A program made the translations under genes and the position numbers. This document shows positions 13,852 through 34,812 of a stretch of 64,000 bases of DNA, piece after piece; the first letter of the stretch is position 1; every line of letters starts with the position of its first letter. Origin of the DNA: an uncultured Roseicyclus sp. (GTDB lineage Bacteria; Pseudomonadota; Alphaproteobacteria; Rhodobacterales; Rhodobacteraceae); contig CANLXA010000003.1 in assembly GCA_947494975.1 (NCBI GenBank), forward strand, positions 496,001-560,000, given 5' to 3'. Below the pieces are notes generated by a model, which saw nothing but the letters and a program-made list of their open reading frames with translations, made no database searches and was not told where the DNA came from.

Positions 13852-14727
13852 TCATCTGACTGCCCCCATCGTCATGCCCTGGACGAAATACTTCCGGATC
13901 GCGAGCGCGAGAATGAACATCGGCAGCATGATGATGATCCCGGCGGCGGAAAGCAGGTTCCAAAGGTCCCCCTCTTCTCCCCGGAAGAGCGCGAGGCCGA
14001 TGGGCAATGTCACCGCCTCGCGGTTGGTCAGGAACAGGGCGAAGAGGAACTCGTTCCAGGCGAGGATGAAGCAGAAGATCGATGCCGTGACCAAGCCCGG
14101 GGCGGCCATGGGCAGGACGATGTTCTTGATGACCTGAAGGCGAGAGGAGCCATCAACCATCGCGGCCTCTTCCGTGTCGAGCGGTATTCCGTCGATGAAC
14201 CCTTTGATCATCCAGATCGCGAAGGGCATGACGATGGCGAGGTTGACCATGATAAGCCCGATCCGGGTGTCGAGCAGGCCGAGGTCGCGGAACATGATGA
14301 AGAAGGGCAGGATGATGACGACAGCGGGCACGAATTGCGTGGCGAGGATCACGACAAGGATCGTCGTTTCGAACTTCAGGGTGAAGCGGCTGAACGAATA
14401 GGCCGCCATGGTCGCAATCGGGATCGCGAAGATCACCGTCACGAAGGCCACGATGGTGGAATTGTAGAGCTTCGCGCCAAGGTCGTAGGGCTGTTCGAAC
14501 ACGGTCCCGAAATTCTCCAGCGTTGGTGTGAAGAACAGGCGCAACTGGTAGACTTCGACGTGGGATTTGAAGGCCGCCAGGAAAATCCAGATGATCGGGA
14601 TCAGCATGATGAAGGCGGCGATCAGGATCAGGATCGCCTGGATCATGCGCCAGAAGCGTTGCTTGCGTTTGCCGGTCCAGAATTCGGAGTTGGCGCCGGT
14701 GGTGGGGACTGCGGACTGCTCACTCAT
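13852..14727 (-). CDS. Sugar ABC importer permease (MalG/UgpE type)
   Basis: A 291-residue inner-membrane permease with six predicted transmembrane segments, starting with AILILIAAFIMLIPIIWIFL. The EAA loop that docks the ATPase is EEAAMVDGSSRLQVIKNIVLP. The protein ends in RKYFVQGMTMGAVR, the typical C-terminus of MalG-like proteins. It is paired with the MalF-like permease 4 bp upstream. Confidence 0.9.
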   Translation of the reverse strand: MSEQSAVPTTGANSEFWTGKRKQRFWRMIQAILILIAAFIMLIPIIWIFLAAFKSHVEVYQLRLFFTPTLENFGTVFEQPYDLGAKLYNSTIVAFVTVIFAIPIATMAAYSFSRFTLKFETTILVVILATQFVPAVVIILPFFIMFRDLGLLDTRIGLIMVNLAIVMPFAIWMIKGFIDGIPLDTEEAAMVDGSSRLQVIKNIVLPMAAPGLVTASIFCFILAWNEFLFALFLTNREAVTLPIGLALFRGEEGDLWNLLSAAGIIIMLPMFILALAIRKYFVQGMTMGAVR

Positions 14728-18298: not shown

Positions 18299-18375
18299 TG
18301 GCGCACCCAGTAGGATTCGAACCTACGACCTTCGCCTTCGGAGGGCGACACTCTATCCAGCTGAGCTATGGGTGC
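18299..18375 (-). tRNA. tRNA-Arg (anticodon CCG)
   Basis: The 77-nt cloverleaf folds fully: acceptor GCACCCA/TGGGTGC, D-arm GCTC/GAGT, anticodon stem TCGCC/GGCGA with loop CTCCGAA, and T-arm with GGTTCGAATCC. The anticodon CCG reads CGG arginine codons. The 3' CCA is encoded (18299-18301), and a CTGC-T5 tail follows. Confidence 0.95.
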
Positions 18376-18609: not shown

Positions 18610-19608
18610 TCAAGCCGCCCGGGCCACCACCTCAGAAAGCGCGAGTTCCACCAATGCGGTCCCTGCCCCGTCGCGATGCGCGCCTTCGGACAAAACCCGC
18701 TTCCAGCCCCGCGCGCCGGGACGATGGGCAAAGAGGCCTAGCATGTGACGCGTAATCTGATGCAAACGCCCACCCGCGGCCAGTTGAGCGTCGATATACG
18801 GCAACATGGCCAGAACAACTTCCTCGGCCGACCGGTATGGATTTTGGTCGCCGAACACGCGTCGGTCCGCATCCAGCAGGATGTCCGCCGGCGTGTTATA
18901 GGCGGCCCGCCCGATCATCACACCGTCCAGACCCGCATCCAGATGCGAGATCGCCTCATCCAGCGTCGCGATACCGCCATTGATCGATAGGTGAAGCTCC
19001 GGATACGCCCGCTTCATCTCGTGGACCAGGCCGTAATCGAGCGGCGGAATATCCCTGTTCTCCTTGGGACTCAATCCGTCGAGCCACGCCTTGCGCGCAT
19101 GGATCGTAACGCGCCTGATACCTGCGCCCAAGACAGCTTCAAGAAACGCGGGCAATGCCTCGCGCGGCTCTTGATCGTCCACACCGATACGGCATTTCAC
19201 CGTCACCTCTACCGGGCTTTCGGCAATCATTGCGGCCGCGCAATCTGCCACAAGCTGCGGCTGGCGCATCAGAACGGCGCCGAAACACCCCGATTGCACC
19301 CGATCCGACGGGCAGCCGACATTGAGGTTGATCTCATCATATCCGTAGCCACCCGCAACCTTCACGGCCCGGGCCAATTCCGACGGATCAGACCCACCCA
19401 ACTGCAGAGCAACCGGATGCTCTGCCTTGCCAAACCCCAACAAACGGTCCCGATCCCCGTGCAACACAGCTGCGGACGTCACCATTTCGGTGTAGAGCAA
19501 CGCACGGCGCGACATCAGCCGATGCAGGTGCCGACAATGCCGGTCCGTCCAATCCATCATGGGCGCAGAAGATAACCGCGCTGCCGCGGTGGCTGCGTTT
19601 ATGGGCAT
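18610..19608 (-). CDS. dusA: tRNA-dihydrouridine(20/20a) synthase DusA
   Basis: A 332-residue flavoprotein that reduces uridine to dihydrouridine in the tRNA D-loop. The N-terminal SAPMMDWTDRHCR, the catalytic-cysteine segment NLNVGCPSDRVQSGCFG and the FMN-phosphate region SINGGIATLDEA ... DGVMIGRAAYNTP are all typical of DusA. The start at 19608 opens the conserved N-terminus. The first 19 codons and the upstream region have a diverged second copy at 27679-27855, which implies that an element has integrated here and supplied the present 5' end. Confidence 0.95.
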   Translation of the reverse strand: MPINAATAAARLSSAPMMDWTDRHCRHLHRLMSRRALLYTEMVTSAAVLHGDRDRLLGFGKAEHPVALQLGGSDPSELARAVKVAGGYGYDEINLNVGCPSDRVQSGCFGAVLMRQPQLVADCAAAMIAESPVEVTVKCRIGVDDQEPREALPAFLEAVLGAGIRRVTIHARKAWLDGLSPKENRDIPPLDYGLVHEMKRAYPELHLSINGGIATLDEAISHLDAGLDGVMIGRAAYNTPADILLDADRRVFGDQNPYRSAEEVVLAMLPYIDAQLAAGGRLHQITRHMLGLFAHRPGARGWKRVLSEGAHRDGAGTALVELALSEVVARAA

Positions 19609-19728
19609 TCAAAGGTCTCCTAGGGGCCGCTGATGGTCGGAGCGAACCCGCTGTGCACACCATACGTACACGAGGGACCTACCGCCACCCTACCCCGTGC
19701 AAAGACAGGGGTTCGGCGGTAGTTGGGC
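19552..19728 (-). repeat. Left copy of the dusA 5'-end direct repeat (probable attL)
   Basis: This 177-bp segment comprises dusA codons 1-19 and about 120 bp upstream. It matches 27679-27855 in the same orientation with no net gaps. The coding part is 48/57 identical, and a 21-bp upstream block (19684-19704 versus 27811-27831) is identical at the same distance from the ATG. Similarity stops at codon 20. Confidence 0.85.
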
Positions 19729-20019
19729 GGGTCCGAGTCCGATCCCGCTTCTGAAAACGGTCCGATCGTGGTCCAAACCTGGATTATCCTTATCCGCGAC
19801 GATGTTCGAAGAGCGGACGTTCATGCGTCGTTCGACGAATGGCCGGGGCGAGGCGATCGTGGCTGATGCTGTAACGCCCACAAAAGTCTGATACCCGTTT
19901 TGATGCCGCCATTCGGAGGCCGTGATTTCATCCGTTCAGTTCTGCATAGGACGTTTGTTACTTCAAATCAGATGGTTGTGACGCTCTAGGTGCACCATAC
20001 CTGCGACAAGAAATCCATC
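19729..20019. other. Gene-free stretch between dusA upstream region and permease gene
   Basis: About 290 bp with no recognisable gene or RNA. It lies just inside the proposed left end of the dusA-integrated element, where an integrase gene would be expected, but no integrase-like sequence is visible. Confidence 0.4.
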
Positions 20020-20961
20020 TTACCGCTCTCCACGCCGGAAAGGCGTCATCAACGCATCTGGCACTTCGGCGCGGCGGGCGACAAGCACGAGGGCCAAGAT
20101 CGACAACACGTAGGGTGCCATCAGGAATAATTGGTATGGTACGCCTTCGACCACCGTCTGGAGGCGCAACTGATAGGCATCAAAGAATGCAAAGAGCAGA
20201 GCTCCGACCAGCGCTTTACCGGGGCGCCACGAGGCAAAGACAACCAGAGCGATGCAGATCCACCCGCGTCCTTGCACCATTTCGGGAAAGAAGCTGTTGA
20301 ACGCGGCCATCGTCAGGAACGCTCCGCCAATGGCCATAAGCGCCGAGCCTGCGACCACCGCGCCGATGCGGATCAAGATCGGGTTCAGCCCCTGCGCCTC
20401 AACCGCGTGAGGGTTTTCGCCGGTCATCCGGATGGCCAGCCCAAGCGGCGTGCGGGCCAGAACATAGGCCAGGACGCCGACCGACGTCAGCGCAAGATAA
20501 GTGGGCATGGTTTGCTGAAACACGATTGGGCCGAGGATGGGAATGTCGGAGAGGAACGGTACGTCGAGAGGCAGAAACGGTTCAATCGTTGGCGGCAAAT
20601 CTCCGACCTCTACCAGCAAGCGGTAGAGGTAATAGGCCAGCGCTGAGGCGAACAGCGTGATGCCAAGTCCGGACACATGCTGCGATAGGCCGAGGGGCAC
20701 CGTCAGGATCGCATGCAAAAGCCCGATAATGGCCCCACATAGCGCCGCCACCATCAGGCCGGTCCAAAGGTCGCCGCCCATGTAAACAGTCAACCAGCCG
20801 GTCATAGCGCCCATCGTCATAATCCCCTCGATCCCGAGGTTCAGCACACCGGCCCGTTCGCATAGCAGCGCGCCAAGCACACCGAAGATCAGCGGCGTGG
20901 CGATGCGCAGGACCGCCGCCCAGAGACTGGTGTTGGCCAAGAGTTCCAGCGCTTCGATCAT
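20020..20961 (-). CDS. Nucleoside/nucleobase-type ABC importer permease (second)
   Basis: A 313-residue inner-membrane permease of the BMP-associated (BmpD/NupQ-like) type. The N-terminal LLCERAGVLNLGIEGIMTMGA is the hallmark of this permease subfamily, and about nine hydrophobic segments follow. The start at 20961 overlaps the stop of the preceding permease gene by 4 bp (ATGA). It is the last gene of the operon beginning with the CodA-like deaminase. Confidence 0.9.
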   Translation of the reverse strand: MIEALELLANTSLWAAVLRIATPLIFGVLGALLCERAGVLNLGIEGIMTMGAMTGWLTVYMGGDLWTGLMVAALCGAIIGLLHAILTVPLGLSQHVSGLGITLFASALAYYLYRLLVEVGDLPPTIEPFLPLDVPFLSDIPILGPIVFQQTMPTYLALTSVGVLAYVLARTPLGLAIRMTGENPHAVEAQGLNPILIRIGAVVAGSALMAIGGAFLTMAAFNSFFPEMVQGRGWICIALVVFASWRPGKALVGALLFAFFDAYQLRLQTVVEGVPYQLFLMAPYVLSILALVLVARRAEVPDALMTPFRRGER

Positions 20962-22001
20962 TTTCGCACCCGGTACGTTGTGAAGAGAAGTGCAACCAGC
21001 ATGGTCAGAAGGCACAAAGCCACGATGACGTCCGCGATAAAACTCGGTACGCCGGTGGCGCGGCTCATGGCGTCTGCGCCCACAAAAACGGTAGCCACGA
21101 AGATGGCGGCGGCCACGACGCCTGCCGGGTGGAGGGCTGCCAGCATCGCCACAACGATCCCCGCATAGCCAAAGCCCGGCGACATTGTGGTCGTGACCAT
21201 CGCCGTGACACCCAGGACCTCCATCGATCCCGCCAATCCAGCCATCGCGCCTGAAAACAGAGCAACGGCCATCAGGTTCCTTGGAAGCGAAATCCCGGCA
21301 AATGACGCGGCCGATGGGCTTAGGCCGACCGCGCGCGTTTCCGTCCCAAACACCGTACGCGACAAGATCAGCCAGACCACGCCTGCGGCCGCAATGGCGA
21401 TCAGGAACCCGATGTGAAGTCGGGTGCGCGCGATGAGATCGGGAAGGCGGAAGTCACCATTGACCGGGACGGACGAGGGCCAGCCAAACGCCATCGGATC
21501 GCGAAGGGGGCCCTCAACCATCATGCCGACGAAGAGGATGACGATGAAGTTGAGCAGCAGCGTCGTGACAACTTCATCGACCCCGAAGCGCAGGCGCAAA
21601 TAGGCAGGTCCCGCTAGAAGGGCTGCTCCCGCTGCCATGCCAATGACAAGCAGGACTGCGACGCCGAGCACAGGAGGCAGCCCAAGCGAATGCCCGACCC
21701 AGGCGGTCATCAGCGCGCCCATGAAAAACTGTCCCTCGCCACCAATGTTCCACAGACGTGCGCGGAACGCGATGGCGGCGGCCAGCCCAGTCAGGATAAG
21801 CGGCGTCGCGCGGGTCAGCGTTTCCGTGATGGAAAGGCGAGACCCAAGCGCACCCCGCAGCATCTCGGCGTAAGCCGTCATGGGGTTCACGCCCGCCGCC
21901 GCGATAAGGCCTGCGGCAAGGGTCAAGGCTATCACGACCGCTACGATGGGGGCTGTGATGACAAGATAAAGCGGGACGTGCGAGCGCCGTTCAAGCCGCA
22001 T
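20958..22001 (-). CDS. Nucleoside/nucleobase-type ABC importer permease (first)
   Basis: A 347-residue permease of the BMP-associated family, with ATPLILTGLAAAIAFRARLWNIGGEGQFFMGAL as recognisable core (given here by its first segment and the IGGEGQ box). The start at 22001 is preferred because GGAAGG then lies 9 bases upstream; two ATGs further up fall on or before that site. It overlaps the ATPase gene by 11 bp and couples to the second permease by ATGA. Confidence 0.87.
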   Translation of the reverse strand: MRLERRSHVPLYLVITAPIVAVVIALTLAAGLIAAAGVNPMTAYAEMLRGALGSRLSITETLTRATPLILTGLAAAIAFRARLWNIGGEGQFFMGALMTAWVGHSLGLPPVLGVAVLLVIGMAAGAALLAGPAYLRLRFGVDEVVTTLLLNFIVILFVGMMVEGPLRDPMAFGWPSSVPVNGDFRLPDLIARTRLHIGFLIAIAAAGVVWLILSRTVFGTETRAVGLSPSAASFAGISLPRNLMAVALFSGAMAGLAGSMEVLGVTAMVTTTMSPGFGYAGIVVAMLAALHPAGVVAAAIFVATVFVGADAMSRATGVPSFIADVIVALCLLTMLVALLFTTYRVRK

Positions 22002-23511
22002 CAGATCCATCCTTCCAGACACCCGCCATCATCAGGCCAAGTCTCTGCGGGTCAGCCTCGCCTACCGGGATCGGGTCCGAAAGGCGGCCCTTGACCATAG
22101 CTTGAATGCGGTCGGAGAGTGCAACGGCTTCTTCCAATTCTTCTGAGATCAATAGGATCGCGGCCCCCTCCGCGCGCGCGGCAAGCAACTCTGAATGCAC
22201 CGCGGCAATCGCGCCCTCGTCAAGGCCTCGGGTCGGTTGATTGGCAAGCAGGAACTTGGGGCCAATGGACAGGCAGCGACCAAGGATCAGCTTTTGCATG
22301 TTCCCCCCCGACAAGAGCCTTGTCCGCGTGTCGGGCGTGGCCCCGCGAATGTCGAAGCGGTCGATCAAGGTGGCCGCATAGGCCTTGCACGCGGCCTGAC
22401 GCACAAAGCCTCGCCAGGCGAATTCAGGCGTGCGCAAGCGCTCAAGCACCGCGTTTTCCCACACCGCCAGCTCGCCCACGACGCCTTCGCTGTGGCGGTC
22501 CTCAGGCACGCGGCCCACGCCCGCCCGGATCATCCCGCGTGGCCCCAGTGGGATGACATCCCGCCCCTCTAGCGTGAGCGCACCGGAGGTCGGCTGCGTC
22601 AATCCGGACAAAAGCGCGCCGAGACTGGCTTGACCGTTGCCGGACACACCGACGATGCCAAGGATCTCTCCCGCGCCAATCGTGAAGGACACGTCATCGA
22701 GTTTTCTCTCGCCTCCGGCCTCAACCCGCACCTCGTTGGCGATCAGAACCGGCGTACCGATCTTGTGATCCTGGCGCACCGGACGCTCCACCTTTCGGCC
22801 GACCATAAGTTCCGCCAATTCCTCGGCGCTGGTCTCGGCCGTCGCACGTTCGGCCACCAACTTTCCGCCTCGAAGCACAGCAACCCGATCTGATGCGGCC
22901 ATCACTTCGTGCAGTTTGTGGCTGATGAAAATCAGCGAAAGCCCCTCTTTCGCCATATCGTTCAGCGTTTCAAACAGGCGCTGTGCTTCGGGTCGGGCGA
23001 GCACCGCCGTGGGCTCATCGAGTATCAAAATCCGGGCATCGCGGTAGAGCGCCTTGAGGATCTCGACCCTTTGTCGCTCGCCAACAGACAAACGGCTGAT
23101 CTTCTTGTCCGGCGACACAGGAAGGCCGAACCGCTCGGATATCTGCAACAGCTTCTTGTGCGCTTGAGCCCGCGAAGTTGTCGGCCGCAGAAGCGACTCA
23201 GACCCGAGCATGATATTGTCCAGGACCGTCAAATTGCCCGCGAGGGTGAAATGCTGGTGCACCATGCCCACACCTGCATCGATCGCCGCGCGCGGCTTGC
23301 CGGAGGGAAGCTGCTGCCCGAACACCCGCACAATCCCCTCATCGGCGGCATAGTGGCCGAAGAGAATGTTCATCAACGTCGTTTTGCCTGCACCATTTTC
23401 CCCCAGAAGGGCCAGCACTTCGCCTTGCGCAAGGGTGAGCGAGATGCTGTCGTTGGCCGTCAACGAACCAAACCGCTTGGTAATTCCGTCAAGTTCCAGA
23501 ACAGCGCTCAC
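21991..23511 (-). CDS. Nucleoside/nucleobase-type ABC importer ATPase (tandem domains)
   Basis: A 506-residue protein with two ABC cassettes. The first has Walker A GENGAGKTTL and signature LSVGERQRVEILKAL followed by LILDEPTAVL. The second has a degenerate Walker A (GVSGNGQASL) and LSGGNMQKLILGR with Walker B region LLANQPTRGLD. This layout is typical of the RbsA/NupO-like ATPases that serve BMP-type importers. The start is a GTG inside the amidase stop (GTGA overlap). Confidence 0.9.
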   Translation of the reverse strand: MSAVLELDGITKRFGSLTANDSISLTLAQGEVLALLGENGAGKTTLMNILFGHYAADEGIVRVFGQQLPSGKPRAAIDAGVGMVHQHFTLAGNLTVLDNIMLGSESLLRPTTSRAQAHKKLLQISERFGLPVSPDKKISRLSVGERQRVEILKALYRDARILILDEPTAVLARPEAQRLFETLNDMAKEGLSLIFISHKLHEVMAASDRVAVLRGGKLVAERATAETSAEELAELMVGRKVERPVRQDHKIGTPVLIANEVRVEAGGERKLDDVSFTIGAGEILGIVGVSGNGQASLGALLSGLTQPTSGALTLEGRDVIPLGPRGMIRAGVGRVPEDRHSEGVVGELAVWENAVLERLRTPEFAWRGFVRQAACKAYAATLIDRFDIRGATPDTRTRLLSGGNMQKLILGRCLSIGPKFLLANQPTRGLDEGAIAAVHSELLAARAEGAAILLISEELEEAVALSDRIQAMVKGRLSDPIPVGEADPQRLGLMMAGVWKDGSDAA

Positions 23512-24821
23512 AGGGGCATCCCCGCGATTGGGCCGGGGTAGGCTATCGGGGGCGGGGCAATCGTTGCCGCAAGCGCAAGCAGCATTGCGTCGGAGCCATG
23601 AGGGCCAATCAGCTGTACTGCTGTCGGAATAGGGTCGGAGGTCGGCAGCGGTATAGCGAGGGCAGGAAGGCCCGCGATATTGGGAAGGGCGGCGCCCGGG
23701 GCCAGCGCCTCCATCTGTGCCAGATGTGCTGCGACGTCCGTGTGATCGGTGGGGAAGGCCCCGATTTGGGGCGGCGGACCGGACAGGATGGGCATGAGGA
23801 TCGCGTCGGTTGTGGCGAACGGGTGCGCTGCGGAGTGGCTGATCTGCTGGATACGGCGGGTGAGCGCGAAAACCTGCGGGCCCGTCATGTCGCGCCCGAG
23901 GGTCGCGTTGGCGGCCGCGAGCGGCGAAATCTCGCGCTCTGTGATTCCGTAGGCGTCCAGCCATTCCGCAAGCGAAACCGCCAGGATTTGTCCCGCTATG
24001 TCATGGGCCTCCCGCCCAAGATCATCGGGTGCTGGCGTGGGTATGATTTCGGCGCCTGTGGCCTCAAACAGGGCCGCGATCTGGCGCGTCGCTTGGGCTT
24101 GGACCAGGTCACAACGGTTCGGGATGATCAGCGCGATACGAGGCTTCTCCGGCGCGCGGCCTTTTGCAAGGAAAGGGCCAAAAACCGCAACGATGTCACG
24201 CAAGGACCGGGCAAGTATGCCTTCGCCGACGATCCCCATCAGATAATTGCCGAAATCCGGGCCCATGGGAGTTACTGAGCGTGAGGGCTTAAGCCCCCAT
24301 AACCCGCAACACGCAGCCGGGACGCGTATGGACCCCGCCGCATCGGTCGCGTGTGCCACGGCAACGATCCCTGCGGCGACGGCTGTCGCTGCCCCGCCAG
24401 AGGAGCCGCCTGGGGAAAGTGCGGTGTCGAACGGGTTCAGAACCGGTGCTTGGCCGGGCGGCTCGGAACTGAGCGCGAAGCCAAATTCAGGGGTGGTACT
24501 CAGCCCAATCGGCACAAGGCCTTGGCCGCGGAGGATCGTGAAGAAATCGCTGTCGCGGGGCGGCGAAGCCACGCGCTTGCGCAACGCCGATGATCCAGCA
24601 CAGGGCGCCAAACCTTTCGCGTGCGAGCCAAGATCCTTGGCCAGCATCGGCACGCCTGACAAAGGCCCCGGTGCGGGCGCGGGTATCGTATCATGGAGCA
24701 AAAGGCGTGCCACAGCCCCTAATCCCGCCTGCGCATCGGCACGGGCGAGAGTGGCATCCATCACGGCAGGGGCAGTTACCTGCCCCTGAGCGATAGCATT
24801 GGCAAGGGCCGTGGCGTCCAC
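23508..24821 (-). CDS. Amidase (amidase-signature family)
   Basis: A 437-residue amidase-signature hydrolase. The Ser-cisSer-Lys triad is recognisable: lysine in VPMLAKDLGSH, and the glycine/serine-rich SPGGSSGGAATAVAAG followed by DAAGSIRVPAACCGLWGLKP. It hydrolyses amide bonds of small molecules, but the substrate is unknown. It is embedded in a nucleobase-type importer operon, so it may open or trim a transported N-heterocycle derivative (inference). It starts at a GTG 3 bp after the binding-protein stop. Confidence 0.85.
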   Translation of the reverse strand: MDATALANAIAQGQVTAPAVMDATLARADAQAGLGAVARLLLHDTIPAPAPGPLSGVPMLAKDLGSHAKGLAPCAGSSALRKRVASPPRDSDFFTILRGQGLVPIGLSTTPEFGFALSSEPPGQAPVLNPFDTALSPGGSSGGAATAVAAGIVAVAHATDAAGSIRVPAACCGLWGLKPSRSVTPMGPDFGNYLMGIVGEGILARSLRDIVAVFGPFLAKGRAPEKPRIALIIPNRCDLVQAQATRQIAALFEATGAEIIPTPAPDDLGREAHDIAGQILAVSLAEWLDAYGITEREISPLAAANATLGRDMTGPQVFALTRRIQQISHSAAHPFATTDAILMPILSGPPPQIGAFPTDHTDVAAHLAQMEALAPGAALPNIAGLPALAIPLPTSDPIPTAVQLIGPHGSDAMLLALAATIAPPPIAYPGPIAGMPL

Positions 24822-24824
24822 GTT

Positions 24825-25808
24825 TTAGGCGGGCTCGTCGTTATCAATCGGCACGTCCCACTCGCCGGACTGGATCTGCGCCTGCCGCGCTTCCATGGGG
24901 GCGATCGCCTCGGCCGGGACTTCGTCGGCCACGTAGATCAGCTCATTTCCGCCGTGGGCCATGAACGAATACTCGGTGTAGTCGCGGCCTACCGGGGTGC
25001 CGGCCTGAATATCGGCAACAATGGCCTCAATCGTCGGGCCGTAATGCCAAATCGCGTTGGCGAAGACGGTTCCCGGATAACGCGGCGTGTAATCGATCAG
25101 CGATCCAATGGCGCGCACGCCGCGCTCCTCCGCTGCGTCCGCTGTGCCGATGCGTTCACCGAACAAGATGTCCGCACCCGCGTCGATCTGCGCCAACCCG
25201 GCCTCTTTCGCGCGCGCGGGATCGAACCAGGCACCGAGGAATGCGTTGAGGAAGGTCGCATCGGGGTTCACTTCCGTGACGCCCATGCGGAACGCGTTGA
25301 TCAGCAGGTTCACCTCCGGGATCGGGAAGCCGCCAACGGAACCGAAGACGCCTGTTTCCGACATTTGGCCCGCCAACATGCCCGCAAGGTACGCGGCCTC
25401 GTGATTGCGGGTGCCGAAGACACCAAAGTTATCGCCCTCTGGCCCGCCGGAGGAGCCCATGAGGAACGCTGTGCCAGGGTAGTCGGCGGCCACTTCGCGC
25501 GCCTCACGCTCGACCGCATAAGATTCGCCCCAAACCAGCTCTACGCCGCTTTCCGCGTATTCGCGCATGGCGCGGGGATAGTCGGTGGGGGCCACGCCTT
25601 CGGAGAATTCATATTCGATCAGACCCGACGCGGCCGCTTCCTGGAAGGCCAGGTGAATGCGACTGTTCCACGCATTCTCGACCGGAGAGTTGTGCACGCC
25701 TGCAATGCGGATCACGCTTTGGGCATTGGCGCGCCGAATGTATGCAGGCAAGGCGAGTGTGGCGGCGGCACCGATCAGAAGCTGTCGGCGATTGGATGTA
25801 AACGTCAT
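24825..25808 (-). CDS. BMP-family ABC substrate-binding protein
   Basis: A 327-residue periplasmic binding protein of the Bmp/PnrA-like family. It has an N-terminal export signal with paired arginines (MTFTSNRRQLLIGAAATLAL) and the PnrA-type core LAGMLAGQMSETGVFGSVGGFPIPEVN. Relatives bind nucleosides or purine bases. The start at 25808 is chosen for AAAGGA at good spacing; the frame extends 11 codons further into the preceding gene. Confidence 0.88.
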   Translation of the reverse strand: MTFTSNRRQLLIGAAATLALPAYIRRANAQSVIRIAGVHNSPVENAWNSRIHLAFQEAAASGLIEYEFSEGVAPTDYPRAMREYAESGVELVWGESYAVEREAREVAADYPGTAFLMGSSGGPEGDNFGVFGTRNHEAAYLAGMLAGQMSETGVFGSVGGFPIPEVNLLINAFRMGVTEVNPDATFLNAFLGAWFDPARAKEAGLAQIDAGADILFGERIGTADAAEERGVRAIGSLIDYTPRYPGTVFANAIWHYGPTIEAIVADIQAGTPVGRDYTEYSFMAHGGNELIYVADEVPAEAIAPMEARQAQIQSGEWDVPIDNDEPA

Positions 25809-25837
25809 GGAAGGTCCTTTCGTGATGATGGCTGTTG

Positions 25838-27133
25838 TCATTGATCTTGAGCCGTCGGCGCGTAGTCCGCCGGATCAAGCGTTTCGGGACGGTCTGGCAG
25901 GGTGAGCCGCACAATCCGGGGCTCGGTGCGCGAGATGATCTTGCCGTGTTTGATGACAGCGAGGCGTGTGGCCCGCAACCGCACAGCCTCAATCGGGTCG
26001 TGGGCTTGCAAGACGACCATATTGGCCGGACCGCCTTCGCGGATCGTGGGATCGGGCAGACCCATGGTGCGCGCGCCGTTTACGGTGACAGAGGTGAACG
26101 CCCAGTCCATCGCCTCCCGCGACGTCATTGGCACGGCGTGTATCCCCATATGCGCGACGTCCAGCATGTCGCCTGAGCCCAGAGAATACCAAGGATCCAT
26201 CGTGCAATCCTGGCCAAACGATACGTTCACGCCCGCCGCACGCAATTCTGGCACACGGGTCAGACCGCGACGACGGGGATAGGTATCGGAGCGCCCCTGC
26301 AGTGTGATATTGATCAGCGGGTTGGGAATGATGTTCATGCCCGACTCCGCAATCAGGGGGATCAACTTACTGGCGTAGTAATTGTCATAGGAATGCATCG
26401 CCGTGACATGGCTGGCGGTCACGCGGCCCCCAAGACCAAGCCGTGTCGTTTCCGCCGCGAGCGTCTCGACATGGCGCGACATCGGATCATCACTTTCGTC
26501 GCAATGCAGGTCGACCATCAAGCCGCGCTCTGCCGCGATTTCACACAACCGCACGACAGAACGGGCGCCGTCTTCCATCGTCCGTTCAAAATGCGGGATG
26601 CCGCCCACCACATCGACCCCCATATCAAGGGCACGCAGCAGGTTCGCTTCCGCAGTCGCAGAGCGGTAGAGACCGTCTTGCGGGAACGCCACCAGTTGCA
26701 GGTCGATGTATGGCGCCACGATCTTGCGAACCTCGACCAACGCCTCGACAGCCGTAAGATTATCATCACAGACGTCGACATGACTACGGATGGAAAGAAG
26801 ACCTTGAGACACGGCCAGATCGCAATACCGCAGGGCACGTTCCATGACGGCCTCAGGGGTGAGCAGCGGCTTCAGCTCCCCCCAAAGGGCAATCCCCTCC
26901 AGCAAGGTCCCCGATACATTCAACCGCGGCGTACCGAGACTGAGTGTGGCGTCCATGTGAAAATGCGGATCGGTGAACGGGGGCGAGACCAGACGACCGG
27001 CAACATCCATTTCCGTGCGGGCCTCGGCGCTGATCTGCGGCGCGATCGCGGCAACCCGGTCGGCTTCGATCCCGATGTCCAGCGGACCCTGCCGGTCTGG
27101 CAGCCGGGCCTGTCTCAAAATCAAATCTAGCAC
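25838..27133 (-). CDS. Amidohydrolase, cytosine deaminase (CodA)-like
   Basis: A 431-residue metal-dependent amidohydrolase. The metal ligands are visible in DPHFHMDATLS, in DLHCDESDD and in the terminal SFGQDCTMDPWYSLGSGDMLDVAHMG segment, which closely follows the pattern of CodA-type deaminases. It would deaminate a nucleobase-like compound brought in by the downstream importer. It is the first gene of the operon, starts at GTG (27133) behind a G-rich Shine-Dalgarno, and has a 14-bp palindromic operator candidate 20 bp upstream. Confidence 0.85.
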   Translation of the reverse strand: MLDLILRQARLPDRQGPLDIGIEADRVAAIAPQISAEARTEMDVAGRLVSPPFTDPHFHMDATLSLGTPRLNVSGTLLEGIALWGELKPLLTPEAVMERALRYCDLAVSQGLLSIRSHVDVCDDNLTAVEALVEVRKIVAPYIDLQLVAFPQDGLYRSATAEANLLRALDMGVDVVGGIPHFERTMEDGARSVVRLCEIAAERGLMVDLHCDESDDPMSRHVETLAAETTRLGLGGRVTASHVTAMHSYDNYYASKLIPLIAESGMNIIPNPLINITLQGRSDTYPRRRGLTRVPELRAAGVNVSFGQDCTMDPWYSLGSGDMLDVAHMGIHAVPMTSREAMDWAFTSVTVNGARTMGLPDPTIREGGPANMVVLQAHDPIEAVRLRATRLAVIKHGKIISRTEPRIVRLTLPDRPETLDPADYAPTAQDQ

Positions 27134-27152
27134 ATCACGCCCCCCGTTTTTC

Positions 27153-27166
27153 TTACCATATGGTAA
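27153..27166. promoter_or_regulatory. Candidate operator TTACCATATGGTAA
   Basis: A perfect 14-bp palindrome lies 20 bp before the deaminase start. The ACCA-N2-TGGT core resembles the arrangement of RutR-type sites (TTGACCA-N2-TGGTCAA), a pyrimidine-sensing TetR regulator. That would suit a nucleobase operon, but the half-sites are not identical, so the regulator is inference. Confidence 0.55.
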
Positions 27167-27666
27167 AATTCTGAGGAGTCATCTGGCCAAATGCACGAAC
27201 TGGCAAAAGAAGCGTCATGTGAACAATAATGAGGCAACGCGCGCGCCATGCATCTGTAAAGACAAGCGGATAAATGGGCACATAGCGACAGAGCGCGCAA
27301 TCGGCGAGGCTTTCGCGAAGCCCTCGACGATCAGCTAGGACGTATGACGACGGAACGAGCTGCCGGCTTGCTAAAGAAACTTTAAAGAATTTTGCTAGTC
27401 GAACCAAAGCAACCGCACATGCAACGGCCGCGTTTAGGTGCTTTGTTGGCGGAGCAGACCTGACCGGCGCTCACTTCGAACGGCTGCTTTCAGAAGGACA
27501 TGCAGCCCTTGGGAACTCGCCACCCTAGAATTCTCGTCCCCGGCGAATGCCAAAAGTCCCCGAAGAAACCAAAACCTGTCGGCTCACCGAGATGCATACG
27601 AAGTCACGCGATAGAAACATTAACCTACGCTGCACACGACACCTCACAAGCATTTGAAATTGCTCC
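27167..27666. other. Gene-free stretch at the right end of the dusA-flanked block
   Basis: About 500 bp, visibly less GC-rich than the neighbourhood, without a credible gene on either strand. It may contain decayed ends of the integrated element. I searched for an integrase remnant by translation and saw none. Confidence 0.45.
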
Positions 27667-27735
27667 CTAATCACCAACATCCATCATAGGGGTAGAAGAT
27701 AGCCTGGCTGCCTCGGTGGCTGCGTTCAAGGGCAT
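27667..27735 (-). pseudogene. dusA 5' fragment (first 19 codons)
   Basis: Reading from the ATG at 27735 gives MPLNAATEAARLSSTPMMD, then VGD and a stop. DusA begins MPINAATAAARLSSAPMMD followed by WTD, so 16 of 19 residues match and the match ends abruptly at codon 20. This is the displaced original or alternative 5' end of dusA left by integration of the intervening 8.1-kb block. Confidence 0.85.
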
Positions 27736-27855
27736 TCAGCGATCTCCTTCGGTCCGACAGCATTCGGGACGGACCCACAGTGCACACCATCCGCGCACGA
27801 TGCGTGACGCGCCACCCTACCCCGTGCAAAGGCAGGTAGTCGGCGGTGTTCGGGT
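27679..27855 (-). repeat. Right copy of the dusA 5'-end direct repeat (probable attR)
   Basis: This segment is the partner of 19552-19728. Both carry the start of dusA plus its upstream region, in the same orientation, with an identical 21-bp block exactly 76 bp upstream of each ATG. The two copies bound the deaminase/amidase/ABC importer block. Confidence 0.85.
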
Positions 27856-27910
27856 AGAGCGTCCTTCAACCAGTGGCGCGACCGAACCGAGCATTCCAAC
27901 AAATGTGGTA

Positions 27911-28207
27911 ATGTGGTGCGCTTGCGGCTATCGTTTCGGCCTGCCCAGACTCTCGATCGACATCTCGCCGGAACACCACCGGAAGCTGAAGGCCATCGCT
28001 GCTCTCAACGGGCAGAGCATCAAGGACTATGTCCTAGGTCACGCCCTTTGCAACGCCGCTGCCCTCGATGGCATGGGTGGAGACGAGGCTTTCAAGGCGT
28101 TGGCAGATTTTCTGAAGCCCAAGATCGAACAAGCGCGGCGCGGCCAGCTTTCCAGCAAGGCCGTTGAGGATATTCGGCGAGAAGAGCGCAGGCGCGCTGG
28201 GGTCTGA
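27911..28207 (+). CDS. ParD-like ribbon-helix-helix antitoxin, possibly start-altered
   Basis: The conserved region reads PRLSIDISPEHHRKLKAIAA followed by LNGQSIKDYVLGHAL, an RHH DNA-binding and dimerisation module. A C-terminal toxin-binding tail (EQARRGQLSSKAVEDIRREERR) follows, as in ParD. The family normally begins with Met directly before PRLSI; here that codon is CTG (27941), so translation must use CTG or the ATG at 27911, which adds 10 unrelated residues. The following toxin gene is broken, so the pair is probably decaying. Confidence 0.6.
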   Translation: MWCACGYRFGLPRLSIDISPEHHRKLKAIAALNGQSIKDYVLGHALCNAAALDGMGGDEAFKALADFLKPKIEQARRGQLSSKAVEDIRREERRRAGV

Positions 28208-28215
28208 CCAACTCC

Positions 28216-28518
28216 ATGCCCGGTTATCAGATTACCTTTGCTGCAGAGGAGGATCTCCGGGGCATCTGGCGGTAAACGCTCCTTTCCTGGGGCCCCGAAA
28301 AAGCTGATATGTATCTTGATCAGATCGAGGCTCGCTTCGACGCGATCGGCGATGGTCGAGTGCGCTCACGATCATTCTAGAGGTTGCCAGACGAGGTTTG
28401 CGTCCATCGTTGCCAGCATCACTACATCTTCTGGATCGTCATCGACAGTCCCGACATTATCGCCGTCCTGGACGAGAAGATGGATGTCGTTCAGAAGCTC
28501 CGGGATAGGCTTTTGTGA
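28216..28518 (+). pseudogene. ParE/RelE-type toxin pseudogene (two in-frame stops)
   Basis: The frame opens MPGYQITFAAEEDLRGIWR and then hits TAA where the family has Tyr/aromatic in 'WRYT'. Beyond it TLLSWGPEKADMYLDQIE continues, a second stop (TAG) follows RSRSF, and then HHYIFWIVIDSPDIIAVLDE and KMDVVQKLRDRL complete the family's C-terminal core. It starts 8 bp after the antitoxin stop, the usual parDE order. Two stops in an otherwise aligned frame mean that the toxin is inactive. Confidence 0.75.
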
Positions 28519-28739
28519 CCTTTCCGCGTTACAGTCGAGCTCACCCTTCATCACGTTGCCCCAGTTTGAAGGCAGTCCACACACCAGCCCGCGCAAGGGT
28601 GAAAGATTTCATGCATCGAGCTGTGCCATTGTATAGCAACGCACGCCGATGGCATGGACGGCCTCGTGCAGGATGGCTGCCGGAGCCGGCTACCGGCCGA
28701 CCTGTTGGTTCTAAGGATCATCTTGACGTCCCTCGGATG

Positions 28740-29168
28740 TCACGAAACGCGGGCGATAAACGTGCCGGACACGGCTCGGATGAGCTGGAATAGCAGGAAG
28801 CCCGCGGGCCCGAACAGGAAGGTCACCGGCAGGCATGGCGCGACCTGCCAGAACGGCATCCCGATGCTCCGACCGTGCCGGCAGATCCACGCACCGACCA
28901 CGAGGTCGAAGGCGAGGAAATGAATCCATCCCGCCATGAGCGCATCGGCGTGCGAGAAAAGCTCCCTCACCTCGGCGAAGCTGCCCAAGCCGCCGTTGGG
29001 GGCGGGAAAGGCCAAAAGGATCGCGACGTAGCCGACGGACAGCGCCGCCGGGATGACGAGACCAGCGACACGGTCTGACCAGACAGGGATAAGCGGTGAC
29101 AGCAGAAGCGCGGCCCAACCGGCCATCGCCAACATCCCCGCGAGCGAGAAGATCAAGTCATGGTTCAC
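28740..29168 (-). CDS. ABA4-like family membrane protein
   Basis: A 142-residue protein with four predicted transmembrane helices and the ABA4-like (DUF4281) pattern: LFSHADALMAGWIHFLAFDL, GAWICRHG and a LLFGPAGFLLFQLIRA-type end. Plant ABA4 acts in neoxanthin formation; bacterial members are of unknown function. It begins at GTG (29168) with AAAGGA upstream and overlaps the preceding gene by 11 bp, so it belongs to the MATE operon. Confidence 0.75.
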   Translation of the reverse strand: MNHDLIFSLAGMLAMAGWAALLLSPLIPVWSDRVAGLVIPAALSVGYVAILLAFPAPNGGLGSFAEVRELFSHADALMAGWIHFLAFDLVVGAWICRHGRSIGMPFWQVAPCLPVTFLFGPAGFLLFQLIRAVSGTFIARVS

Positions 29169-29622
29169 GGGACGTCCTTTCGGAACCAAGATGGGCGAGA
29201 TCCAGCACGACGTGGTGTGTGCCGTCGGAGGTCCGCTCCTTCGAGTGTCCCTCTGGACCGACCTCGACCCGGATCTGCTTGCGCAGGTTGGAAAAGCTAT
29301 CGAAGCGGACCACGTCAACGGCTTCGTCGAGGTCGAGCACCAGCCGGAACCACCCGGACCGGAACTGGTCGGCGGCCAGCACCGTCGCGGCGAAGGGCTG
29401 TGACAGGTAGCGCCCGGTCACCCGCCCGCCAACCTCCCAGCCTTGCGGCGGCCGGTCGCGCGACGCGGCATGAAACGCATTCCAGTCGCGGAAGCCGTGA
29501 CTCTGCGCGACCCGCTCGAGTGCCTGCGCGTGGCTGATCTTCTCGCCCTCTTCGGCGATTGTAGCACGCAGGTGCCTTGCCTCCTGCTTCGCCTGAGTTA
29601 TCGTAAGCACGTCGCGTGTCAT
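29158..29622 (-). CDS. Glyoxalase-superfamily-associated helical-domain protein
   Basis: A 154-residue cytoplasmic protein. The N-terminal AKQEARHLRATIAEEGEKIS, ending with HAQALERVAQSHGFRDWNAF, is the small helical domain that databases label glyoxalase-related. A beta-rich second half (GGRVTGRYLSQPFAATVLA ... VDVVRFDSFSNLRKQI) follows. No catalytic role is established. GGAGGT lies upstream of the ATG, which overlaps the MATE stop by 4 bp. Confidence 0.7.
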   Translation of the reverse strand: MTRDVLTITQAKQEARHLRATIAEEGEKISHAQALERVAQSHGFRDWNAFHAASRDRPPQGWEVGGRVTGRYLSQPFAATVLAADQFRSGWFRLVLDLDEAVDVVRFDSFSNLRKQIRVEVGPEGHSKERTSDGTHHVVLDLAHLGSERTSREP

Positions 29623-31007
29623 GCTGGCACCTCCTGAACCGTGGTGAAGAGACCCCAGCGCAGAGACTGCCCTCTTGCGACCTGTGCCAACACGAGGACG
29701 GTCAGGCCGACCAGCAGGAGCTCCGCGACCGGCGCTGCGAGCCAGATGCCGGGCTCCCCCATTAACCTCGCCAACGCGAAGGTCAACGGCATTGCGAAGA
29801 GGTAGGGTTTGGACAGCCCCAGGATCGCCGCACGACCCGCATCGCCGATCGCCTGGAAATGCATGGCGATCATCATCAGCGGCCCGGCGGCGAAGAATCC
29901 CGCCGAGATCACCGGCAGGATGCGCGCGACCTCTCCAATAACGACCGGGTCTGAGACGAACGCCGCGCCGATCGGTTCCGCGAAGACCGTCACGCCGATC
30001 TGCAGCGCCAGGCAATAGCCGAAGGCCGCGATGATCGCTGTCCGAAGGCTTGCGTCGCTGCGGTGGAACGCCCCTGCCCCGTAGTTGTTTCCCGTGATCG
30101 TCTGCATCGCATGGGCGAGACCAAGGAGTGGCAGGAAGGCGAAGGTGATCAATCGCGTGACGATGCCGTAGGCCGAAACGGTCGCGTCGTAGTCAGGGGC
30201 TTCCACCCATTGGAGGGCCGCGATGATCGCCCCCGACCCGAGCGCAAGCCCGAGGAAGTTGAGGCTTTGCGGCGCGCCGAGCGCGAGGATGCCACGCCAT
30301 CCCGACAGCGGCGAATGGTGCCACAGCGCCGAAGGACGCAGTCCCGTATCCCCGAAGACTCGGAAGGCGAGTATGATGCCAAGCGCCAGTGCCTGCGCCA
30401 TCGCGGTGCCATAGGCAGAGCCCGCGACGCCCATGTCCAGAAGACCGATCAGCACGTAGTTGAACGCCATGTTGCTGAGTGAAACCAGCAGGCTCATCGC
30501 CGCCATGAACATCACCAGGCCCTCATTGCGGAGGGCGTCGGAATTGACAGACAGGACGAAGACCAACGGCGCTGCGAACACGGTGACGCGGAGGTAGATC
30601 AGCCCCATCTCGGCCAACTCCGCCGACCCGCCGGCGGCCAGCAGCGCAACAGGCCGTCCGTACGCCAGAAAAAGCGCGATCAGGATCAGGCCGACAAAGA
30701 CGGCGAGCCCGTGCGCCGCGGAATAGGTGGCGTGCGCCTCGTTCACCCGCCAAGCGCCGAGTTGGCGGGCGAGGATGCTCGACATGCCTGAGGACACCAG
30801 CGTCGCCAGCGCCACGATCAGCATGTAGAGCGGGAACATCAGCGTGACGGCGGCCAACGCCTGTGGCCCTGCGAAATGCCCTAGGAAGAGCGCATCGACC
30901 ACAGCAAGAAGCCCGTTCATGCCCATGACGAAGATGATGGGAAGCGCCGTACGCGCGTAGATCGGGCCAAGCGGCCCGGTGAGAAAAGAGTTGGTATGGG
31001 ACGACAT
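29619..31007 (-). CDS. MATE-family efflux transporter
   Basis: A 462-residue inner-membrane antiporter with twelve predicted helices in two homologous halves. The N-terminal half contains FVMGMNGLLAVVDALFLGHFAGPQALAAVT and the second half NNYGAGAFHRSDASLRTAI, both characteristic of MATE proteins that expel cationic drugs or metabolites against H+ or Na+. Start set at MSSHTNS, about 11 codons inside the longest frame. It is the first of a three-gene unit downstream of the LysR gene, which probably regulates it. Confidence 0.88.
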   Translation of the reverse strand: MSSHTNSFLTGPLGPIYARTALPIIFVMGMNGLLAVVDALFLGHFAGPQALAAVTLMFPLYMLIVALATLVSSGMSSILARQLGAWRVNEAHATYSAAHGLAVFVGLILIALFLAYGRPVALLAAGGSAELAEMGLIYLRVTVFAAPLVFVLSVNSDALRNEGLVMFMAAMSLLVSLSNMAFNYVLIGLLDMGVAGSAYGTAMAQALALGIILAFRVFGDTGLRPSALWHHSPLSGWRGILALGAPQSLNFLGLALGSGAIIAALQWVEAPDYDATVSAYGIVTRLITFAFLPLLGLAHAMQTITGNNYGAGAFHRSDASLRTAIIAAFGYCLALQIGVTVFAEPIGAAFVSDPVVIGEVARILPVISAGFFAAGPLMMIAMHFQAIGDAGRAAILGLSKPYLFAMPLTFALARLMGEPGIWLAAPVAELLLVGLTVLVLAQVARGQSLRWGLFTTVQEVPA

Positions 31008-31190
31008 GACCCCGTTTTCCTTCCGGCTCAGGTCGCGCAAGGATTGGACGGGGCCCGCATTACCATCCGCGCGACGTAAACCGAGGATGACGAAGATCGT
31101 GTCTACTACAGAACTTCACCGTGACAGGATGTCGGCGGGCGGCAGGCGTCTGTTGCCTGAGCGCCCAATAGATGGACCGTCGCACTCTTG

Positions 31191-32105
31191 TCAAGCGGAC
31201 CGGTTTCCACGCCCTACGCGCTCGGCCAGGCCACGCGCCAACACGTCGAAGACCACCCTGATGCGGCGGCTGGTCTGCAACTCCCGATGGGTGACCAGCC
31301 AGATTGGAAACTCAAGCGAAGGGAAATCCGGCAAGACCTTCTCTATGCCAGGTTCAGCCTCGCCCAACGTTTCAGGCTGCATCGAGACGCCATAGCCCGC
31401 CCTTACCAGCTCCCATGCCACGACACCGCTCTCGCTCGACATTACGAAACTCTCTGCGCGAACCGGCACGCCCATGTTGTGCAGCGGGGTCATGAGGCGT
31501 TCAGGGTCGGCGTTGCCGACGAAATCGAGGGTGGCCACATCGCGCGGTGTACGCGGGCGGCCTGCGTGGTCGAGATATTTAGTCGTGGCATAGAGATTGG
31601 CGCGAAAGTCGCCCAAGTGCCGGGCAATGACGTCCGGCTGGTCCGGGCGGACATGGCGTATCGCGATGTCTGCCTCGCGCTGCGTCAGATTCTGCATCTC
31701 ACTCGACGCAAGAATGCGGACGCGGATGCCCGGCGCCGTCTGTCTCAATGGCTTGAGCACGCCCGGCAGGATCGCCGCCGACAAGAGGTCCGTACCCGTG
31801 ACCGTGACCTCTCCGGTGACATCCTGAGATTTGCCGTCGGCCACCATCGAGATGAGCGTCGCAGCCTCGCCCATCGTGCGCATGTGATCAATCAGGTCGC
31901 GCCCTGCTTCCGTCAAGGTAAGACCACGGACGCTACGTTCTACCAGCGTGACGCCAAGTGCCTCCTCCAACGCACCGATCTGCCGTCCTATCGTCGGCTG
32001 CGTTGTCTTCAGCACGCGCGCCGCGCCGCTGAACGAGCCTTCCTCCGCTGTCGCGAGGAAGGCACGCACCTGGTTCCAATCGAAGGAGACGGCCTGCCAG
32101 TTCAT
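31191..32105 (-). CDS. LysR-family transcriptional regulator
   Basis: A 304-residue LysR regulator: winged helix-turn-helix at about residues 9-68 (VRAFLATAEEGSFSGAARVL ... QPTIGRQIGALEEALG) and a LysR substrate-binding domain at about 95-295. It lies upstream of and on the same strand as the MATE gene and divergent to a methyltransferase gene. Control of either neighbour is plausible. The inducer is unknown. Confidence 0.9.
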   Translation of the reverse strand: MNWQAVSFDWNQVRAFLATAEEGSFSGAARVLKTTQPTIGRQIGALEEALGVTLVERSVRGLTLTEAGRDLIDHMRTMGEAATLISMVADGKSQDVTGEVTVTGTDLLSAAILPGVLKPLRQTAPGIRVRILASSEMQNLTQREADIAIRHVRPDQPDVIARHLGDFRANLYATTKYLDHAGRPRTPRDVATLDFVGNADPERLMTPLHNMGVPVRAESFVMSSESGVVAWELVRAGYGVSMQPETLGEAEPGIEKVLPDFPSLEFPIWLVTHRELQTSRRIRVVFDVLARGLAERVGRGNRSA

Positions 32106-32294
32106 TCATGAGCGTATAGCAGCTGGACGAACTTAAGCAATCGACCTTTCATGAGCGCATGGATGATACCGGCTGCGAAACGAGATCGGCCCGGTCTCGG
32201 CAACCGCAAGCGACACAATGTACTCCGCAGGTTCTTACGACTGGCGCATCCGCGCTGCTTCAAACCTGAAGTGCAACACGCAAAGGAACCCGGC

Positions 32295-32915
32295 ATGACT
32301 GCCCAAGCCTTCTGGGACCGGCATGCGCCCAAGTACGCAAAAAAGCCAATCGCCGATGTCACCGCCTACGAAGAAAAGCTGCGCTGCGTCACTGCGCTTC
32401 TTCGATCGACCGATCGCGTTCTTGAAATCGGCTGCGGGACAGGCGGCACAGCGAGGAAGATCGCGCCTTTCGTCGCTCATGTGACCGCCACCGACCTCTC
32501 TGCCGAGATGATCCGGATCGCCCGGTCACGATCAGGCGGAGATGCCACGGGTACACCAGAATTTCTTCAGGCGGAGGCGGCGCAACACAGTCCTAGCCAA
32601 CCGTTCGACGTCATCTGCGCGTTCAGCCTGCTTCACCTGGTGGATGACATACCCACCGTGCTGGATGCAGCATTCCACCAAATGAAACCTGGCGGTCACT
32701 TCATATCAAAGACGGTTTGTATGAAGGACGCACCGCGCTGGATGCGCGCCATCGTTCGTGTGCTCATGGCCGTGCGGATCGCGCCTAATGTGATCATCTT
32801 GAGTCGCGCTGAACTGACCCGACACCTGATCCGGGCCGGGTTCGAAATCGAGCAGACGCGGTACTTCGGAAAGAACCGACTGAGCCCGTTTATCGTCGCG
32901 CGCAAGCACGCCTGA
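32295..32915 (+). CDS. Class I SAM-dependent methyltransferase
   Basis: A 206-residue protein with SAM motif I VLEIGCGTGGTARKIAP, motif II region VTATDLSAEMI, motif IV FDVICAFSLLHLVDD and motif VI MKPGGHFISKTV. The substrate is unknown. The ATG at 32295 is preferred for AAAGGA upstream; the frame runs further up without methyltransferase features. It is followed by small membrane proteins and a second methyltransferase, suggesting one accessory transcription unit. Confidence 0.85.
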   Translation: MTAQAFWDRHAPKYAKKPIADVTAYEEKLRCVTALLRSTDRVLEIGCGTGGTARKIAPFVAHVTATDLSAEMIRIARSRSGGDATGTPEFLQAEAAQHSPSQPFDVICAFSLLHLVDDIPTVLDAAFHQMKPGGHFISKTVCMKDAPRWMRAIVRVLMAVRIAPNVIILSRAELTRHLIRAGFEIEQTRYFGKNRLSPFIVARKHA

Positions 32916-32949
32916 GGCAGACCAAGACGTTTTCACGAGAGACCGAAAC

Positions 32950-33606: not shown

Positions 33607-33668
33607 ACCCGACCGTGCTCCCGGCCTGATAGCGGCAAACTCCAGAAACAAAGAAAGAAGACACCGAA

Positions 33669-34088: not shown

Positions 34089-34137
34089 AAAAATGTGCGC
34101 ACCGCGGACATTCCGAATGAGTACCAGGAACAACAAG

Positions 34138-34794: not shown

Positions 34795-34812
34795 CGGGGC
34801 TTTGAGTTGAAA

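Follow-up and report, generated by a model that had tools for sequence, protein, structure and literature searches.

Integrase-less islands stacked at the dusA start of an uncultured Roseicyclus, candidate passengers of a dusA-targeting conjugative element

The dusA locus and its two modules

The stretch of DNA analysed here, a window of 64,000 nt from the genome of an uncultured Roseicyclus sp. (4.55 Mb in 9 contigs), carries the gene dusA, which encodes a tRNA-modifying enzyme, and two modules upstream of it, M1 and M2; coordinates are those of the window. The dusA open reading frame (ORF) occupies positions 18610–19608 of the minus strand and comprises 332 codons (332 aa); its codons 1–19 and upstream region are island-borne, and its body is native. 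The start of dusA occurs twice in the same orientation, as ungapped copies at 19552–19728 and 27679–27855, the left one being the true start of the gene and the right one an orphan. The start-to-start offset is exactly 8127 bp for all three sub-blocks (D1–D3), and a search of the whole genome with 19552–19728 returned only the query itself and 523679–523847 of the contig (window 27679–27847; 78% identity, E=1.5e-28). The coding parts differ at 9 of 57 bases, as counted by eye, and an identical upstream block of 22 bp (19683–19704 and 27810–27831) begins 75 bp from the ATG. Similarity is lost directly after codon 19 (ATG ATG GAT), and the orphan copies of other genera end at the same codon as that of the window. 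The first-pass annotation of this DNA had reported the duplicated start, the agreement of 48 of 57 coding bases and the end of similarity at codon 20, all of which are borne out; the identical block that it described is also present, but it had been given as 21 bp at 76 bp from the ATG.

Module M1 (19561–27687, minus strand, 8127 bp) is an integrase-less island with both ends recognised. Its proximal end, of the type here called class B, consists of the dusA start and about 120 bp of upstream DNA (19561–19728) and is joined to the dusA body by the attachment (att) core ATGATGGAT at 19552–19560. This end contains an arm pair, GTGTAC/GTGTGC (19655–19671, one mismatch in 12), the two arms 11 bp apart, at −111/−100 from the core. 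The distal end (27632–27687) consists of the core at 27679–27687, the sequence ATTTCA and the arm GTGTGC (27632–27637) at +50. The two cores, both inside the longer repeat, provide M1 with direct-repeat att sites.

The cargo of M1, all on the minus strand, comprises two ABC permeases of the BPD_transp_2 family (20020–20982 and 20958–22001) and a double ABC ATPase (21991–23532), the start codons of these three being not fixed; an amidase (PF01425; 23508–24821); a BMP/PnrA-type solute-binding protein (24825–25808), for which the atrazine periplasmic binding protein 6pi5 scores best among solved relatives; and a CodA-type cytosine deaminase (25838–27133; NF005748, 749.7 bits against a cut-off of 438). 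The likely role of these genes, judging from their families, is the uptake and deamination of a nucleobase or a related ring. The profiles agree with the earlier description of a non-phage cargo (CodA-like deaminase, amidase and BMP-type ABC importer) with no integrase inside. The deaminase occurs at an identity of at least 50% in 8 of 37 genomes, the present one included, and in G011 a 7.5-kb block with 87% DNA identity to the M1 operon lies at an unrelated place (L065, 5561–13019) with no dusA starts there. Three other loci of the same genome pair present 72–78% identity, and the higher value of the M1 block points to horizontal transfer. No dusA start was found at the four cargo loci scanned elsewhere (G011, G019, G015 and G013; G037, G043 and G020 were outside the scan). 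The simple case in which the M1 cargo is a native locus of the genus was rejected on the distribution of the deaminase and the location of the G011 block.

Module M2 (27688 to about 35119) has the orphan dusA start (27679–27855, minus strand) as its proximal end, also of class B, with arms at 27782–27787 and 27793–27798 (one mismatch in 12). About 47 bp from this copy lies the gene of a ParD antitoxin (27902–28207, plus strand, start uncertain; PF09386, 2.4e-26), which is 70% identical to the parD that occupies the corresponding position in G407, followed by a ParE pseudogene (28216–28512, plus strand) with full-length similarity and in-frame stops. By profile matches, the remaining cargo (28740–34794) encodes ABA4-like, Glyoxalase_8, MATE, LysR, methyltransferase, DUF2306, DUF6326 and, again, methyltransferase proteins. 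G286, with a DusA of 62% identity, has homologues of all eight genes in its dusA island, in a largely kept order with one methyltransferase moved and inverted; identities are 91% for MATE, 83% for Glyoxalase_8, 81% for LysR, 76% for ABA4, 73% for DUF2306, 59% for DUF6326 and 54% for the methyltransferases. M2-type cargo has therefore moved between dusA islands of different genera.

On the other side of dusA, just downstream, lies a tRNA-Arg (CCG) gene (18299–18375). In G006 an integrase is found about 4.5 kb downstream of dusA, and the downstream side may also be an integration site.

The empty site and the older class-A region

The dusA regions of 20 relatives were compared over about 14 kb upstream of the gene in each, three of them (L035, L041 and L047) offering less than 13 kb. 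Within these regions, a second dusA start was found in none of the 20, and the M1 cargo operon was absent beside dusA in all of them, with only ABC ATPase/permease paralogues at 25–35% identity. The closest congener, G010 (DusA 95% identical), is collinear with the window over 51457–36925 in four blocks at 90–96%, then over 35486–35120 at 83%, and then in the dusA body from 19567 at about 87%, where homology ends on the upstream side; the flank downstream of dusA is about 86% identical. Window 19568–35119 (about 15.5 kb) is absent from G010, in which dusA adjoins DNA homologous to 35120–35486 and begins with a different sequence (class A). Since the absent DNA includes the parDE region, it is taken as a 15.5-kb insertion in which the orphan start at 27679 separates two modules, and this alignment describes two stacked islands, M1 and M2, not one 8.1-kb block. 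Separate insertions of M1 and M2, rather than one composite insertion, are favoured by G190 (probably Anianabacter salinae ASV31), in which no other island lies on the proximal side of a parD-bearing class-B island. Composition was uninformative as a sign of foreignness, with GC contents of 61.6% in M1, 61.2% in M2 and 62.2% in the flanks.

The empty site of G010 and the chimeric dusA support the earlier proposal of a site-specific insertion at the dusA 5′ end with an island-borne replacement start, and neither ancestral synteny nor tandem duplication lacking an empty site, which the first-pass annotation had named as findings that would contradict it, was encountered. The empty site itself differs from the predicted one, in which dusA would be joined to the parDE region, as G010 skips parDE too and joins at 35120. 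The interval proposed for the block is real but represents only the dusA-proximal half of the inserted DNA, and a third, older dusA upstream region lies at 35120–35486.

This older class-A region, on the minus strand, adjoins dusA in G010, G004, G009 and G286, and in the window it is truncated about 4 bp before its ATG. With the class-A homology ending there and no core left, the far end of M2 was apparently lost by deletion. A third orphan start with a core was also sought at 35120 and not found. In several relatives, integrases of family PF00589 adjoin dusA and are divergent from it, and the class-A upstream region of G009 includes the start of such an integrase. At 35228–35499 on the plus strand lies what is left of the N-terminus of a dusA-type tyrosine integrase, split over two frames and interrupted by a stop codon: window 35228–35487 matches the N-terminal 85 residues of the G009 integrase at 53–62% in two frames, and the sole match of the G009 protein in the whole genome is window 35269–35499, with one stop inside. 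A dusA-integrase relic had been suspected at the cargo ends, and it exists, but just outside the interval then delimited. The genome has seven PF00589 matches, none within the window, and a profile of dusA-adjacent integrases had no match in the regions of five of these seven. On these alignments, we read the window as the stub of an older dusA-integrase element, common with G010, followed by two younger insertions.

Two further differences from G010 were observed in this part of the window. The 1.4 kb at 35487–36924, which adjoin the integrase stub and a carbonic-anhydrase-like gene, include a methyltransferase gene, whereas the matches of G010 on either side are only 92 bp apart, and 35120–36924 has 55.5% GC. 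At 41471–42200, about 730 bp inside an ATPase-like ORF of 863 aa are absent from G010, where the matches on either side meet directly.

Class-B ends, arm sites and integrases in relatives

The orphan copy was used as a query against 394 family genomes, an even sample of a larger group with about one genome per genus, and matched in 19 of them, nine with two matches. In eight of these nine both matches are on one contig in the same orientation, 2.8–12 kb apart, and in G209 they are on two contigs. Where dusA was located (ten class-B genomes), the orphan lies upstream on the same contig and in the same orientation in nine, 2.8–83 kb away, and on another contig in G420. The orphans read ...APMMD and then depart from the dusA sequence. 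The alignment of 29 ends (27 from relatives and the two of the window) revealed conserved upstream blocks around TTTGCACGGGG-TAGGGTGGC and GTGTGCG-TATG-GTGTGCAC; class-B ends are one sequence family, with no alignment to the integrase-bearing class A. The left dusA start of the window groups with these starts of other islands, a relationship that the first-pass annotation had proposed to check. The congener G001 has a degenerate dusA start that is class-B-like by eye.

Marivita hallyeonensis (G407) presents five stacked dusA starts, at 621377 (that of dusA), 632969, 635482, 643590 and near 663,760 (L149), which delimit four islands of about 11.6, 2.5, 8.1 and 20 kb in a stack. The second of them has parDE at the class-B end, as in M2, and then BMT5-like and AlkB-like (2OG oxygenase) genes; the islands of G407 also include fumarylacetoacetate-hydrolase, Ldh_2 and GntP-type genes. 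The island of G190 is a single parD-bearing one, ParD-like genes at 65–72% are also found in L137, L144 and L145, and the islands of G348 and G178 have, by eye only, agmatinase-like and peptide-ABC-like genes. The 2.8-kb class-B island of G190 also encodes a Mu F-like (PF04233) protein (L109, 10206–11075). In G314 (L105, near 2972–2986 kb), the class-B starts are separated by 10 kb and the identical distal ends by 11.4 kb, and an integrase is broken; part of the stack may be duplicated.

Beyond the core ATGATGGAT, the orphans run into a second conserved sequence. The pattern CCNATGATGGAYGGTGGNGATT (core plus ten bases) has 22 exact matches in 21 stretches of a genome collection of 84,980 species, from Marivita, Nioella, Jannaschia, Rhodovulum, Ruegeria, Roseovarius, Boseongicola, Anianabacter, metagenome-assembled genomes (MAGs) of Rhodobacteraceae/Paracoccaceae and one alphaproteobacterial MAG; six of these genera were looked up and belong to Rhodobacterales. 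Codons similar to those of dusA precede 21 of the 22 matches, the exception being L138, and beyond the pattern lie GTGTGC at +50 (exact in 18) and TTTCA at +28 (exact in 16), each within one base in 22 of 22. In the 394 family genomes, core-N40-GTGTGC has 12 matches in 10 genomes and the reversed-pattern control 0; in the genome of the window it has exactly one, the distal end of M1.

The islands themselves appear free of recombinases. PF00589 and PF00239 have no match in the window, and by Pfam the genes of M1 and M2 include none for integration or conjugation, as in a cis-mobilizable element (CIME). Neither profile matches between dusA and the orphan in G000, G407, G292, G424, G178, G190 and G348, and a serine recombinase as the islands' own enzyme was rejected on the PF00239 result in these seven genomes. 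An integrase profile scanned over 19 class-B regions (18 regions and L041) matched only in G314, in pieces of one broken gene 3 kb beyond the class-B orphan. A phage or plasmid vehicle with a class-B end was also rejected, with 0 matches at E 0.01 in 50,697 phage and 72,556 plasmid records and none of the end pattern in viral contigs.

Eleven dusA-adjacent integrases were compared: four form group 1 (G009, G034, G420 and G209; 77–94% identical), and the seven others are 28–35% identical to it. A GTGTGC pair, 11 bp apart, is found at −148/−137 from the core in all four group-1 loci and in none of the seven others, three of which (G003, G019 and G314; 70–83% alike) have TACAACA repeats instead. 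The class-B ends have the GTGTGC pair at about −111/−100, within one mismatch in 17 of 29 ends and within two in 21. In a plus-strand scan of 548 kb of DNA, three arm pairs were found within one mismatch, and three loci of that set, G010, G004 and G009, have the pair beside dusA on that strand; the background is therefore near zero. As far as these motifs tell, the integrase-less ends carry the group-1 arm motif though the surrounding sequence does not align, and M1 has arms common to the group-1 integrase loci at both ends. In group-1 elements (L044, about 13870–13890; L131 and L132) the GTGTGC pair is located directly at the integrase start, where integrase binding could repress the integrase's own gene.

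The G009 integrase belongs to PF00589 and is 34–37% identical over 81–86% to the integrases of phages mEp460, BcepMigl and BcepIL02, which are listed as homologues of the DAI integrases of dusA-specific genomic islands (Farrugia et al. 2015, PMC4482086). Being a DAI-related tyrosine recombinase encoded beside dusA, it is itself classed as a DAI integrase. Beside it are TrbI and CagX/VirB9-type genes. The G209 element encodes a TraG-type coupling protein, a VirB11-like ATPase, VirB8 and TrbI, and with integrase, type IV secretion system (T4SS) and coupling protein, the last looked for in G209 only, it has the components by which an integrative and conjugative element (ICE) is recognised. The group-1 element is predicted to be conjugative in both cases examined (G009 and G209) from its integrase and T4SS genes.

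Group-1 integrases and the common ends also occur together. The G209 island extends over 56 kb from dusA to a class-B orphan; next to dusA it encodes an intact group-1 integrase, and its opposite end is an arm-bearing distal end, one of the 12 core-N40-GTGTGC matches. In G209 and G420 it is the class-B start that has been displaced, the group-1 integrase itself adjoining dusA. In the MAG contig L152, the 836 bp between two cores (2577–3413) comprise a common-type distal end, part of a group-1 integrase (residues 14–180 of the G009 protein at 56–65%) and a class-A-like start, and the dusA body beyond matches codons 10–42 only (33 codons).

Origin of the stack and relation to known islands

We propose that M1 and M2 are, most probably, integrase-less, CIME-like passengers of a dusA-targeting ICE, stacked at the dusA start and now stranded. 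The dusA start would be an integration hot spot where islands accumulate, and an older class-A element with a dusA integrase would already have been reduced to the integrase stub. Each island would insert at the core in codons 17–19, swap the promoter region and the first 19 codons of dusA, and strand the previous start on its far side. From the positions in the stack, M2 would have followed the class-A element, its proximal end being now the orphan at 27679, and M1, whose start dusA uses today, would have come last. The islands have arm sites of a dusA-specific tyrosine integrase borne by a T4SS-bearing conjugative element and no recombinase of their own; a G009-type integrase would act on their ends, and they would be transferred by conjugation as cis-mobilizable elements moved by such a conjugative element. 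Since no intact G009-type integrase is present in the genome, the islands are probably fixed there.

The same insertion mechanism would hold, with no integrase-less lineage, if M1 and M2 had begun as normal dusA islands with an integrase and a deletion had removed it from each. We regard such plain decay as a real possibility while leaning away from it. Truncated group-1 integrases stand beside dusA in G010, G004, G286 and L152 and, displaced, in the window, and CIMEs have been described as decayed elements (PMC5704250); but integrase pieces were found in just one of the 19 class-B regions, neither recombinase family was found inside the islands of the seven genomes listed above, and the class-B ends form a single family with no alignment to the integrase-bearing class A. 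Insertion in trans by some other, unrecognised recombinase, not of the G009 type and encoded elsewhere, is unlikely. The rarity of an intact group-1 integrase among class-B genomes, in 2 of 19 (G209 and G420), and the different arm-to-core distance in the two kinds of end speak for it, while the arm motif and its 11-bp spacing, which match the group-1 loci and occur in none of the seven other dusA integrase loci, speak against it, as does the occurrence of the same distal end with a group-1 integrase in G209 and L152.

Homologous recombination of dusA-linked segments, through transformation or a gene transfer agent, would explain islands of 2.5–12 kb without a recombinase, and gene transfer agents are known in this bacterial group. 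It is hard to reconcile with the homology to G010, which switches within 7 bp of the core between a dusA body and a downstream flank of nearly the same identity, and with orphan starts that end at the same codon, and is thus very improbable. Two copies of one sequence 8 kb apart could suggest a local tandem duplication of the dusA start; however, the copies are only 78% alike, the relatives have no second copy, the 5′ end of G010 is different, and the orphan matches the ends of other genera (79%) as well as it matches the left copy. Such a duplication, or ancestral synteny, can hardly be the explanation, and both are already refuted by the empty site.

Several observations weigh against the proposal that M1 and M2 were carried by a group-1 element. 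The four group-1 loci are of common descent and hence not independent, the arms are degraded in 8 of 29 class-B ends, G314 and G178 possess another kind of distal end that lacks the arm, and the L152 remnant has no arm pair within two mismatches. About 34 kb of sequence did not reveal the far end of the G009 element, the search for T4SS genes covered only G009 and G209, and the scarcity of intact group-1 integrases in class-B genomes counts here as well. Finally, no ATGATGGA core or arm was found at 35120, and with this distal end missing the insertion of M2 itself is judged from its proximal end alone.

The target at the dusA 5′ end, the island-borne replacement start and the short direct-repeat att sites are shared by M1 with the DAI islands (PMC4482086), for one of which a pyrimidine utilization (rut) cargo was reported. 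The 94 islands of that survey (4.8–185 kb) were identified by their integrase, which is the single gene that all of them share. Unlike them, M1 and the class-B islands checked have no integrase, the genome of the window having only the relic at 35228–35499, and arm sites are not described for DAI islands in the parts of PMC4482086 consulted. M1 works like a DAI island but is not one, and by the integrase criterion it is CIME-like. CIMEs, defined together with tandem accretion in PMC5704250, likewise keep attL and attR, do not have integration and transfer genes, and occur in tandem with elements of the same target; in contrast to them, what is displaced here is the 5′ part of a gene together with the DNA upstream of it, the ends are one sequence family over many genera, and co-mobilization is putative. 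The dusA-targeting integrative elements (IEs) of Vibrio include one tandem pair, IEVpaBan1a/1b (PMC8409611), and so resemble M1 and M2 in target and arrangement, but they encode their own Int and directionality factor RdfN and are mobilized by IncC plasmids. Islands at dusA with replacement starts (PMC4482086), tandem dusA islands (PMC8409611) and CIMEs (PMC5704250) are thus known already. A literature search that had most subscription papers outside its coverage found neither dusA islands without an integrase described as a family defined by sequence nor an account of their arm sites.

More speculatively, the dusA start of Rhodobacterales might be viewed as a cassette array, a single-gene, promoter-swapping counterpart of the integron, in which the integrase of a dusA-targeting ICE would load a lineage of integrase-less metabolic cassettes, either in cis or in trans, and these would stack newest-first, each newcomer taking over dusA expression. 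Each cassette would then have the plan of upstream region, first dusA codons and arm pair, sometimes with parDE, followed by an operon and by the core with the distal arm.

Islands without an integrase would be missed by a survey that finds them through this gene, as the DAI survey did (PMC4482086). The conserved ends offer a recombinase-independent search handle, and the position in the stack orders the insertions. These ends would tie small metabolic operons to a conjugative carrier in Rhodobacterales, and each insertion would also swap the upstream region and the N-terminus of a tRNA-modifying enzyme, with effects on expression and fitness that may be tested.

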